Assembly (NCBI GenBank): GCA_028713225.1
Contig: JAQTOS010000001.1
Span: 62,001 to 126,000, forward strand
Origin: Candidatus Altimarinota bacterium
Lineage (GTDB): Bacteria > Patescibacteriota > Gracilibacteria > BD1-5 > UBA6164
DNA length: 64,000 nucleotides
Direction: 5' to 3'
Below are positions 42,233 through 48,007 of the stretch, piece after piece. A program made the translations under genes and the position numbers. Under the pieces are notes generated by a model. It saw nothing but the letters and a program-made list of their open reading frames with translations, ran no database searches and was not told the DNA's origin. The stretch's first letter is position 1; each line of letters opens with the position of its first letter.

Positions 42233-45200
42233 CTAGTTAGAAATAGTTTCAACAAATGGGAAAGCACCAGTATTTAGGTAAGCTTTAACACTTGAGATTG
42301 CTGAAGTAGCAACATCATCTAATTTCAATTCATAAGAAATTGTATTAGCTGAACCATTTTTAACTGCGTTATCAACAACTGCGATGAAAGTTACAGTAGA
42401 ACCAGCATCAACAGTATTGTTAGCAGAAGAAGTAACTTCATTTGCAGCAGCAACACTATCTTTATAAACTCTTACTGTACCAGTAGAAGTATATCCAGTA
42501 GGATTTTGTGTAAATGTAAATCCAGATAAAGTAACAGAATCTTTACCAGCAGCAGTTACAGTAAATCTCATAGCTGAAGTAGATAATGATTTGTTTGCGT
42601 TATCAATTTTAGCAACAACTAAAGTGTTTTCAGCAATAGCATGAACTTTAGAATCTACAGCAGAAGCATAAACTGTACTTTCTGTACCGTTACTAGCTTT
42701 AATAACAACTGAAGCTAAAGACATAGCAATATTAGCTACATTAGTATTAGTATTAGCATTAGCTATTAAATAATAACTAGTTGATTTATCCATAGCTGTA
42801 CCAGTAGTATCAGATACATTTTGGAATACTACAGAAGAATCTGAAGTAGTAGAAGCAACTCCGATTGAACCTGCATCAGTACCATCAGTACTAAGTCTGA
42901 AGTTAGAAAAATTAGATAAACCAGTACCAGATATAGTAATATCTTTTAATTTAACTGTATCATTTCTAGCAGTTAATTTAAATGCAAATAATTTGTTATT
43001 TGAAGTACCAGATGTAAGTAGAGTAGCTTTTGGATTATTATCACTTGAAGCTAAAACAGCACCAGCAGCAAGGATAGTAAAAGCAGGACCTACTAAAGCA
43101 GTTTCATTAACATTAGCAGAAGTTAATGAATCAGTAGCATCAAATGCAACAGCAGAAACATTAAATGTACCAGCAGCTATAGCATCATTAAAATCAGCTT
43201 TTAATTCAATAGTAACTGGACTAGCTGTATTAACAGTAGCATTTAAACCATCAAAAGAATAAGAAGTTGCAGCAACAACTGATTTTGTAGATTTAACTAC
43301 TCCATTAACATATAATGAAACAGTTACATTAGCACCAGTTTGAGATAAACCTGAACCAGCGAAAGTAGCGTTAAAATTAGATAAATTAACAGCATTACCT
43401 TGTGTTTGAGAATATTTACCAGCAAATATAGTTTGAGATTTAGCACCAACAGCTAAGTTAGTAGCACCTAAACCATCAACTCTAGTACCATTTAATGCAG
43501 TAGTATCAACAGTAACTAATACTCAAGCAATTGTACCAACAAAAGAATTTATAGTATTTTGATTAACTGAATATTCTTTAGTAGTTTTAAAAGAATCTAA
43601 AGTCATGTCAGAAACTTTAATAGTAGTACCTGCAGAAGCATCTTTTAATTTAGTATAAACTTTAACAGCAGCAGTACCATCAACAGTAACTGAACCATTA
43701 AATCTAAGAGTTTCAACACCAGCTCCAGTAGAAGTAGGAGTAGCTGAGAAAGTAGAATTACCTATTTGTAAATAAATAGTATTTGCTGCTTTAGATAAAC
43801 CTGTACCAGTAGTAGTAACAGCTAATTCAACATCTTCTAAATTAACAGAATTTTTAGCTTCAATTGTACCTTTCATAAGAACAACATCAGAAGTTCCTGG
43901 AGCAACATTAGCTGATTTAGCAGTAGCAGAATCAGTAGTAAAAGTTACATCACCACCTTTAACATTGTATAATCCTAGAACAGGTAATCCTGAAACAGTA
44001 GATCTGAATCCAGTTTTATTTTCAATAATGTTTATATCAGTAGCTTTCTTAAGATATAATTGATATACATCTGTAGTAAGTTCTACTCTAGCGATATTAG
44101 CTCTTACTAGGTAAGTAGCAGTAACACCATCTTTGATAGTATCATTAAGAGTAACTGCAACTGTTTTACCAGAAACAACAACATTAGAAGAAACAACAAC
44201 ACCATTTCTTTCAACAACGATATTAGAAAGGTTGTCTAAAGAAGCTGCACCAGATTGGTAAAGCATAATAGTTTGGAAAGTTTCGTCTCTAGTTTCTGAA
44301 TCAGTATCAGTATTAGCAACTGTGAATTTACCTAATTCAACTTTATCATTACTAGCATTGTAAGTATTACCACTAGTATTTTGAGCAGCTATAGTTGCAC
44401 TAGCAACAGTATAATCAGCAGTTCTTAAAACAGGAGTAACAAATGATCCTGAAAAATCAGCAGCTGAAGTAGAGATTTCTACTGAAGCAAATTGATAATC
44501 AACACCAGTTGAAGCAGATAATTCAACATACATATCTAATGTAGCAGTTTCACCAGCTTTAACTATGTAAGCAGGAGCAAATGATATAACAGCATCTCCT
44601 TCAGAAGAAAAAGAAGCTTGAGATGAAACTCTAGTACCATTTTTTTCAAACCATACTTTAGAAACACCTGAAGTAGTATTTAAACCTTGTTTTGCGATTT
44701 TTACAGTGTTAACTAAAACATCTGAAGAACCAGCAGTAAAATCAACAACAGCAAATCTAACTGTACCAGCTTTTGGAACTAAAGTACCATTAGCAGGAGA
44801 AGTAGGATTTAAAGAAACACCAAGAGAACCAGCTTTAACTACAGTAGTAGTATTTCCAGTAGAAGTAGTATTTCCAGTAGAAGTTAAATCACCTAGTAAT
44901 CCTCCAAGACCTAAATCAGAAGAAGAATCAGTTGCGTTAGCAGCTGCAGTGAAAGTAAAACCTCTTTTAGAAGCAGAAGAATAATCTGAGAATGAAGCAG
45001 AAATTAATCCAGCAGTAACTGCAGCATTAACGTAAGCAGCTTCCCAAGAAGAAGCAGAAGCATCTTTAGCGATACCTTTAGCTTTCATAACCATTTTTAA
45101 AGCTTCAGCTTTAGAAACGTTATCATTTGGTCTGAAAGTTGCGTTAGCAGCAAGGAAACCTTTAGCTAGAGCAGCTTCAGCATATTTACATCCCCAGTCA

Positions 45201-45484
45201 GTAGCTGGAAGATCTGTAAATTTACCTTCACATTTATTTTCAACAGTTGAACCATTAAGATTCATCATAACTTTTAACATTTCTCTTCTAGTAATAGTAT
45301 CACCTAATCTATAAGCAGATACAGTAGAAGATTGATCAGCGATAACACCAAGACCAGCTAATTTATTAGCAGCTTCAGTTTCAGCAGTGTTAGCATAAGT
45401 AGAGCTAACAGAACCGATAGTAGAAGCAACTATAGCAGTCAAAGCAACAGCTGAAGTAACTTTTTTCAATAAAGAATTACTCAT
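42233..45484 (-). CDS. S-layer protein with SLH domains
   Basis: A 1083-aa exported protein. Residues 1-31 are a signal peptide (KKVTSAVALTAIVASTIGS). SLH repeats follow in residues about 35-165 (RLGDTITRREMLKVMMNLNG, FRPNDNVSKAEALKMVMKAK), binding the cell-wall polymer. The rest is a Ser/Thr/Ala/Val-rich beta-domain tandem (TLDMYVELSASTGV, ANIARVELTTDVYQL). Only one in-frame TGA occurs, codon 654 at 43523-43525; the rest of its many glycines are GGN. In a standard-code reading it falls apart into two pieces. Long leader and strong hairpin terminator support high expression. Confidence 0.93.
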
Positions 45485-46000: not shown

Positions 46001-46155
46001 ATCTTTTTGCTATAGTTTTGCTATTTATCTTGTTTATTTATTCCTTTTTTATGTTATAATTAATATTATAAAAAAATAGCTTCAAAAAACAATCTCTCTA
46101 TGTAAAATTATATTATTATATTATTTATAACATATATAATTCTAAAAATATAGCT

Positions 46156-46215
46156 GTAATATTTAATAAAACCTAATAAATTACTAGCAATTTATTAGGT
46201 TTTATTAAATATTAC
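46156..46215. repeat. Perfect 27-bp inverted repeat
   Basis: 46156-46182 and 46189-46215 are exact reverse complements, separated by 6 nt (ACTAGC). The stem is AT-rich with a central CCTAATAAATT core. It is not adjacent to a gene end: the S-layer promoters lie on its left, the RNA promoter 97 bp to its right. It could block read-through between divergent units or act as a protein-binding/cruciform site. Confidence 0.9.
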
Positions 46216-46311
46216 AAAATAATCTATTCTCTAAACAATGGCTATTTAATAAGAAAAATCAAATTAATAACAAATATTAAATAGAAAATAAAACTTTTTT
46301 TGATAAAAATT

Positions 46312-46340
46312 TTGACAAATACTAAAATCTATGTTTTAAT
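46312..46340 (+). promoter_or_regulatory. Promoter of the structured RNA
   Basis: TTGACA (46312-46317, a consensus -35), 17-bp spacer, TTTAAT (46335-46340). Transcript start is expected near 46347, just before the structured region. Confidence 0.8.
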
Positions 46341-46346
46341 ATACTT

Positions 46347-46638
46347 GTCTTACTCAGTGATGGTGAATCAAATCACCGGAAACAAAAACAAAAATAAATA
46401 GTATGGCTAGATTTAATCTATCTGTGCAACACGCAAAACAAAATACAATTTTCTCTAATCTCTAGAATCTTAAACAATTTTAGCAAAAATATTATGGGAC
46501 AAGCCGCGAGAACATGCTTGAGAAAAAATTTCGAAAACTAAGTATAGACTTGAAGGTAACTTCAAAAAATAACCAGCTATATACAACCCTATGTAATAAT
46601 TATCGCACTGAGGGTCCAATGTATATAGCTATTTTTTT
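46347..46638 (+). ncRNA. Structured non-coding RNA, about 290 nt, family uncertain
   Basis: Promoter at 46312-46340 and a closing stem plus T-run at the 3' end define the gene. Helices in order: GGTGA/TCACC (46362-46377), TAGATT/AATCTA (46408-46420), CAAGC/GCTTG (46500-46520), TTGAAG-GTAA-CTTCAA with a GNRA loop (46550-46565), and AGCTATATAC/GTATATAGCT (46575-46584 with 46621-46630) followed by ATTTTTTT. Unpaired, non-AT stretches CCGCGAGAACA and TCGCACTGAGGGTCC look like conserved functional elements. The sequence has no ORF. It does not match tmRNA, RNase P, 6S or SRP RNA by inspection; a raiA-type RNA is possible but unproven. Confidence 0.72.
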
Positions 46639-46711
46639 GTTTTGATTTTTGGATTTTTTTGAATATAATCCTCGGGCAAAAAATTTATATTATTTTAAAA
46701 ATTGATTAAAT

Positions 46712-48007
46712 ATGAAAATCGAAAGTAAAAGACTTCCAGGTTCAATAGTAGAACTTATACTAGAAGACGAAGCAAGTCATGTGGCTAGTCATAGAAAACA
46801 CGTAATTGAATATCTTAGAAAAAATGCTGATATAAAAGGATTTAGAAAATGAGCCGATATTCCAGAATCTATAATTGTTCAAAAATATGGTGAAGAAAAA
46901 ATCGCTGCAATGATTGTAGAAGATGCTATTGACCATATGTTTAGAGAAGCTTTGAGACAAGAAAAACTTGTTCCTATGGCAGAAGCTGAAATATCTGAAG
47001 TTATTTCTCAAAATCCTATAATCGTTAAAATGACGGTTGAAGTATTTCCAGAAATAGAAATCAAACCTGAATATAAAAAAATCAAACTTACAAAAACTAA
47101 GGTTGAAGTAAAAGATTCAGAAGTAGAACAAGCTCTAAGTGAAATACAAACTAGATTTACTAAATTTGAAGCTTGTAAAGCTGGAGATAAATGTAATATG
47201 TGAGATAAAATTCATATTGATACTGAAGGATTTGATAAATCAGGTGTTTTCTTAGAAAATACTAATATGAGAAATTATCCTCTAGTTCTTGGTTCTAATA
47301 TGCTTGTTCCTGGATTTGAAGAAAAAATAGTTGGAGCTGGTGAATGAGATGAACTTGATCTTGATATAGTTTTCCCATCTGATTATCACAATGCTGGTTT
47401 TGCTTCTAAAGAAACAAAATTCAAAGTAAAAGTAAATAAAATCGAGAAATCAGTTAAACCAGAATTTACTCCTGAATTCATCAAACAATTAAGAGGTAAA
47501 GAAATGGATTTAGCAGGATTTAAAGAACTTATAAAAGCTGAATTACTTGATGTAAAAGATTCAAATGCTAGACTTCAAGATGAAACTAAATTAATTGAAG
47601 AATTAATGAAAATCTCAAGTCTAGATATCGGAGCTAAAATGATAGAAAATCAAGTAAACAAAGTTTTTGAAGAAATCAAAGAAGACATAGCTCAGTCTGG
47701 AGCAAAACCAGCTGATTATATAGCTTCTCTTGGAATGGATGAAACTACTTACAAAGAAAAAAATGTTCTACCTACTGCAATGAAGAGATTACAAGGAGAA
47801 CTTCTATTATACAAGTTAAATGAACTTGAAAAAACAGAAGTAACAACAGAAGAATTAAATTCTGAAATTCAAAAAGTATTTGAAAGATTTGAATCTCCAG
47901 ATGTTAAGGAAAGACTTAAAGAACTTTACAAAGAAGGAACTAAGTATTATGAAGAACTTAGACAAAGAATGATTTACAAAAAAATAGTTGACTCTTTTTT
48001 TAACTAA
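46712..48007 (+). CDS. tig: Trigger factor (ribosome-associated chaperone)
   Basis: A 431-aa protein, exact family length. N-terminal ribosome-binding domain (FRKGADIPESIIVQKYG, the signature loop is here GFRKG), the central FKBP-type PPIase domain (GDKIHIDTEGF, LVLGSNMLVPGFEEKIVG) and the helical C-terminal chaperone domain are all visible. It binds nascent chains at L23, also encoded here. Only three in-frame TGA glycines. It is preceded by the ncRNA terminator. Confidence 0.95.

Follow-up and report, generated by a model that had tools for sequence, protein, structure and literature searches.

What kind of gene, if any, lies between a long minus-strand ORF and the trigger-factor gene tig of a Gracilibacteria genome was the question raised by one locus of the window, i.e. 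the whole 64,000-nt stretch of DNA analysed here. In this genome TGA is read as glycine, since tig is open only with genetic code 25. A sequence-only reading had placed at the locus a sharply bounded, structured non-coding RNA of about 290 nt, and the analysis described below indicates that the RNA gene is both real and new, matching no RNA family now catalogued.

Bounds, helices and covariation of the RNA

The sharp bounds of the RNA are visible in the alignment of the window genome (G000) with its genus mate (G001), which, together with the fold score and covariation, bears out the gene proposed by the sequence-only reading (Table 1). The promoter claimed at its 5′ side, TTGACA-17-TTTAAT, was confirmed as well, as the -35 hexamer and the 17-nt spacer are identical in all seven homologs, and the -10 hexamer is TTTAAT in six, G015 alone having TGTAAT. 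All seven also keep helix P1, the segment UGAUGG-P2-CCG, P5 and the P7 terminator stem. That is, promoter, terminator and fold are demonstrated at the level of sequence comparison. The RNA is read as 250-290 nt long. A covariance model of the seven copies (R1) matched positions 46346-46634 with 197.5 bits, a score obtained with the window sequence itself as part of the model. Further upstream, at 46155-46216, stands a 31-bp palindrome without spacer, near-perfect at 97% complementarity and found once in the genome. It may represent a remnant element or a terminator working in both directions, and it does not belong to the RNA.

Table 1. Positions of the RNA gene, its structural elements and its neighbours in the window
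Feature	Position	Strand	Description
Long ORF	42233-45484	minus	5′ neighbour; RNA gene stands between this ORF and tig
Sigma-70-type promoter	46312..46340	+	TTGACA 46312-46317, 17-nt spacer, TTTAAT 46335-46340; from sequence
Structured non-coding RNA	46346..46638	+	About 290 nt; start placed by the promoter and end by the T-run
P1, 5′ strand	46347..46357	+	GUCUUACUCAG; partner 46538-46549
UGAU junction, hairpin P2 (46362-46366 / 46373-46377) and conserved G	46358..46378	+	TGATGG invariant in 7/7
A-rich linker	46378..46399	+	Unpaired; longer in other genera
P3, variable hairpin	46401..46427	+	From MFE and centroid fold; different hairpin here in G001
P4 hairpin	46462..46483	+	CUAGAAU / AUUUUAG; hairpin at same place in other homologs
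P5 hairpin	46500..46520	+	CAAGC-[CGCGAGAACAU]-GCUUG; paired in 94.3% of cells, with both sides changed at one pair
P1, 3′ strand	46538..46549	+	CUAAGUAUAGAC; partner 46347-46357
P6 hairpin	46550..46565	+	UUGAAG-GUAA-CUUCAA, GNRA loop; genus-specific
P7 terminator stem	46576..46629	+	Outer 10 bp 46576-46585 / 46620-46629; inner 4 bp
Terminator U-run	46630..46638	+	From sequence; U-run present in 7/7 homologs
Putative separate tig promoter	46642..46669	+	TTGATT-16-TATAAT; by consensus match
tig (trigger factor)	46712-48007		3′ of RNA gene

The minimum free energy of the window RNA was -58.6 kcal/mol, versus -42.1 kcal/mol (sd 4.4) for dinucleotide shuffles (z -3.78; none of 200 shuffles as good), and z values for all seven homologs fell between -2.1 and -6.1. 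The 5′ domain is closed by P1, a helix that the sequence-only reading had not named. Its 7 core pairs are formed in 95.9% of cells, and one of them is changed on both sides (G-C/U-A). The pairs of P2 covary, GGUGA/UCACC being replaced by GGUAU/AUACC, GGUAA/UUACC or GGCAA/UUGCC. The most conserved letters are those of the P1/P2 junction (consensus UACUnAnUGAUGG...CCG with GGAAn-UAAGUA), where UGAUGG is invariant, CCG follows P2, and GGAA or GAAA stands before UAAGUA; these letters stay fixed while identity drifts outside P1, P2, P5 and P7. The 30 nt after P2 consist of 60-77% A in all seven homologs. In the window RNA the A-rich linker is complementary to positions 46630-46648, which cover the U-run tail and the bases that follow, and the two could form an A-U duplex or triplex shielding the 3′ end. 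The linker of the G015 RNA contains three AAGUUACAAAA repeats, which none of the other homologs has.

P4 reads CUAGUUA / UAACUAG in G001, that is, three pairs are changed on both sides relative to G000. The GNRA-capped hairpin reported earlier is real (P6), with the loop GUAA becoming GAAA in G001, so that the GNRA type is kept though the letters change, but it is genus-specific, being absent from the other five homologs (g11 and g15 included). Similarly, the 10-bp stem followed by a T-run does exist, but it is the terminator hairpin P7 rather than the closing helix. Its outer stem has 94.3% of cells paired and four pairs changed on both sides; the inner stem (CCCU 46587-46590 / AGGG 46611-46614), lying within the 34-nt loop of the 10-bp stem, has 89.3% and two. 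The two GC-rich motifs described as unpaired do lie in the P5 and P7 loops, although AGGG, in the second motif, forms the inner P7 stem with CCCU. The genus mate has both motifs unchanged, but their letters differ in other genera, so that conservation of the letters is at genus level only and position is conserved more than letters.

Taking P1, P2, P5, P7 and inner P7 together, 92.6% of cells are paired in the seven-sequence alignment. Ten of the 31 pairs are changed on both sides, versus 4.4 (sd 1.5) in shuffles, none of 500 shuffles being as high, on a basis of few sequences (seven, from three genera). The signal vanishes when helix partners are slid by 1-3 columns, a control that favours this helix set, which was picked from the same seven sequences. 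Moreover, the P7 loop UCGC is complementary to the P5 loop GCGA in the window RNA, and the two loops are complementary in at least six homologs (GCGA/UCGC in three, CCCA/UGGG-type in three; p ~0.001, or 0.0125 without near-copies). The two loops may thus touch, but in genus g11 the contact and the inner P7 stem would be in competition, and we therefore treat it as a moderately supported candidate only.

Homologs and their history

The RNA was found in six Gracilibacteria genomes besides that of the window, making seven in total. The copy of the genus mate (genus g1) is 83% identical and in the same place, and diverged copies stand upstream of tig in G074, G075 and G076 (g11) and in G015 (g15); these four were recovered by reading the DNA 5′ of tig. 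The copy of G011, recovered with a sequence pattern from the P1/P2 junction, lies on a contig other than that of tig, where a 178-aa ORF and a DEAD-box helicase gene flank it, and no copy stands upstream of tig in that genome. That is, the RNA is directly upstream of tig in six of the seven genomes and relocated in one.

A search of 77 genomes of the order with R1, in which the best 25 candidates per genome were scored, returned the seven copies and no credible one in the other 70 genomes, where diverged copies could escape. With a looser pattern, a GTDB-wide scan of 84,980 species, from which the record of the window genome itself was possibly excluded, gave 71 loci, six of them true copies. 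These were the same six relatives, each titled as Gracilibacteria or Patescibacteria. Model scores were weak in Clostridiaceae, Cloacimonadota, Flavobacteriaceae and a viral contig, where the loci resembled coding or AT-rich noise on reading, and other promoter-sized BLAST matches were generic promoters, not RNAs. No phage or plasmid relatives of the RNA were found; no viral contig carried the g1 motif pair, and the looser pattern gave there only what the covariance model scored as noise.

In a trigger-factor tree of 28 genomes, whose root is not fixed, the six RNA-bearing rows fall on one side of a branch (support 95/99), and none of 500 label shuffles grouped them as well. Every sampled genome of g1, g11 and g15 has the RNA, so retention is clade-wide. 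On these comparisons the RNA is a clade-specific, vertically kept gene, and in its simplest history it would have been gained once before tig, passed on vertically and relocated once, in G011.

Possible role and rival readings

The RNA has the generic marks of a stand-alone structured non-coding RNA, namely a promoter and terminator of its own, a covarying fold, several homologs and no conserved ORF. It would be transcribed from a near-consensus housekeeping promoter and ended by its own intrinsic terminator, a combination suggesting that it is probably abundant. The predicted fold consists of a multi-branched domain closed by P1 (P2, the A-rich strand, one or two variable hairpins, and P5) and, 3′ of it, the terminator hairpin P7. 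The loops of P5 and P7 may touch, perhaps holding the RNA compact. The P1/P2 junction is a putative partner-binding site, the partner being most likely a protein, although the invariant letters could instead be a purely structural motif. Our tentative preference, to which we give a little under even weight, is thus for a stand-alone, clade-specific RNA gene whose probably abundant product would act in trans as a scaffold or regulator, most likely via a protein at this junction.

The main rival, possible but with about a third of our confidence or slightly less, is a regulatory RNA that pairs in trans with mRNA targets through the P5 loop, the P7 loop or the A-rich linker. Exposed loops and a promoter and terminator of its own would suit such a role, as would an A-rich single strand combined with a U-run tail, found in many regulatory RNAs. 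However, the loop letters differ between genera (CGCGAGAAC versus CUCCCAAAU), those of the P5 loop tend to vary in step with the P7 loop in cis, and no Hfq (PF17209) was found over the cut-off in 27 genomes including that of the window, nor any at all in the RNA-bearing ones. Both the loop drift and the failure to detect Hfq weigh against base pairing. A further, rather unlikely reading is that the new family might be a clade-specific ribonucleoprotein or catalytic RNA, built around the UGAUGG/GGAA junction and the candidate P5-P7 contact, with an activity unlike that of any described bacterial RNA.

That the RNA is a housekeeping RNA (SRP RNA, 6S RNA or raiA) too highly diverged for the Rfam models to detect appears improbable. 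No family of Rfam 15 reached its gathering score anywhere in the 64-kb window, and nothing plausible was matched by the RNA itself or by the seven homologous loci at E up to 10. This covariance-model scan, the check proposed by the sequence-only reading, included raiA (RF03072, gathering score 101.3 bits), of which that reading had had a weak impression; the impression found no support, since neither the window RNA nor its seven homologs matched at E up to 10. None was found in 40 relatives either, in a search that is weak alone as no positive control rang. The earlier failure to place the RNA in the tmRNA, RNase P RNA or 6S families was borne out, as far as Rfam models these. One gene per genome is expected for tmRNA and for RNase P RNA, and the matches of this genome lie elsewhere (RF00023 at G000:C9:32421-32885, 66.6 bits, with none at the RNA; RF00010 at G000:C16:41950-42365, 135 bits, outside the window), so that the RNA is neither. 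A fragment of either was also rejected, as there is no similarity beyond AT-rich words. The RF00023 match is not called by ARAGORN and is perhaps a diverged tmRNA.

Size and a strong promoter would fit a diverged housekeeping RNA, and SRP and 6S RNAs are unaccounted for elsewhere in the relatives: the bacterial small SRP RNA (RF00169) matched in 0 of 25 genomes (11 of 14 controls ringing) and 6S RNA (RF00013) in 0 of 76 (5 of 14 controls ringing). However, both go undetected in RNA-lacking relatives too; the gap is therefore order-wide and not filled by this RNA. Furthermore, no long interrupted duplex is predicted, as 6S RNA would require, and the GNRA hairpin, which might recall SRP RNA, is missing in five of the seven homologs. 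The order may thus lack 6S RNA, SRP RNA and Hfq, or hold strongly diverged forms.

A cis-acting leader or attenuator of tig is quite improbable. The RNA does stand directly upstream of tig in six of the seven genomes, and a terminator-like stem precedes the gene. A cis leader, though, would always be in cis and share one transcript with its gene, whereas tig has a promoter-like site of its own, downstream of the RNA terminator and upstream of the start codon, the TATAAT-like box of which is common to relatives without the RNA, and the G011 copy stands beside an unrelated gene pair while tig of that genome has no RNA upstream. The separate promoter-like site and the G011 copy argue that this is not a tig leader and that tig is not needed in cis, demonstrating by sequence comparison the independence of the RNA from tig.

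Least probable by far is that the locus codes for protein under code 25, either as a short gene of its own or as a 5′ extension of tig. The absence of any ORF claimed earlier needs correcting in that, with TGA as glycine, a frame from ATG 46514 is open for 66 codons upstream of the tig start, running through the RNA into the tig frame, but it is not conserved, since in G001 it ends before tig in another register, the longest frames of the other homologs disagree in place and length, and the changes track base pairs rather than codons. Automated gene calling could misplace the tig start at 46514 and so hide the RNA.

Comparison with known RNA systems

Stand-alone structured bacterial RNAs without assigned function are a familiar kind, and with no family match the present RNA is therefore a new family within a known kind, not a new category. 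Candidate-phyla bacteria have genomes of about 1.2 Mb; despite this, the clade keeps a 250-290 nt RNA with a near-consensus promoter in every sampled member. With no Rfam family for it, and 6S RNA, SRP RNA and Hfq undetectable in the order, RNA-based regulation here is essentially uncharted, and the seven-sequence alignment and model make one such RNA accessible to concrete tests.

Among described RNAs, Hfq-type intergenic sRNAs share the A-rich single strand and the intrinsic terminator with its U-run, but they lack so large a conserved multi-branch core, and no Hfq scored above the cut-off in the 27 genomes. The 6S RNA family is of similar size range, with a strong promoter and presumed abundance, and the present RNA resembles 6S (RF00013) and Ms1 in these respects; unlike them it is multi-branched rather than one long interrupted duplex, and 6S was unmatched in the 76 genomes. 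The GNRA-capped hairpin of the window copy and its genus mate recalls SRP RNA (RF00169), which is nevertheless unmatched, and the other five homologs have no such hairpin. Like raiA (RF03072), the RNA stands alone at 200-300 nt, with a multi-branch domain closed by P1, conservation of junction letters and possibly a contact between loops. In raiA, pseudoknots stand at the core, pk-1 joining the P3 loop and the P5-P6 junction by 7 pairs (PMC11751092), whereas here only the 4-6 bp of P5-P7 loop complementarity, of other topology, was found. One account describes raiA from Bacillota and Actinomycetota, in more than 2,500 species (PMC11706538). The present RNA differs from it in having no model match, in occurring in seven Gracilibacteria, in its letters and its A-rich linker, and in that its terminator hairpin takes part in the candidate loop contact.
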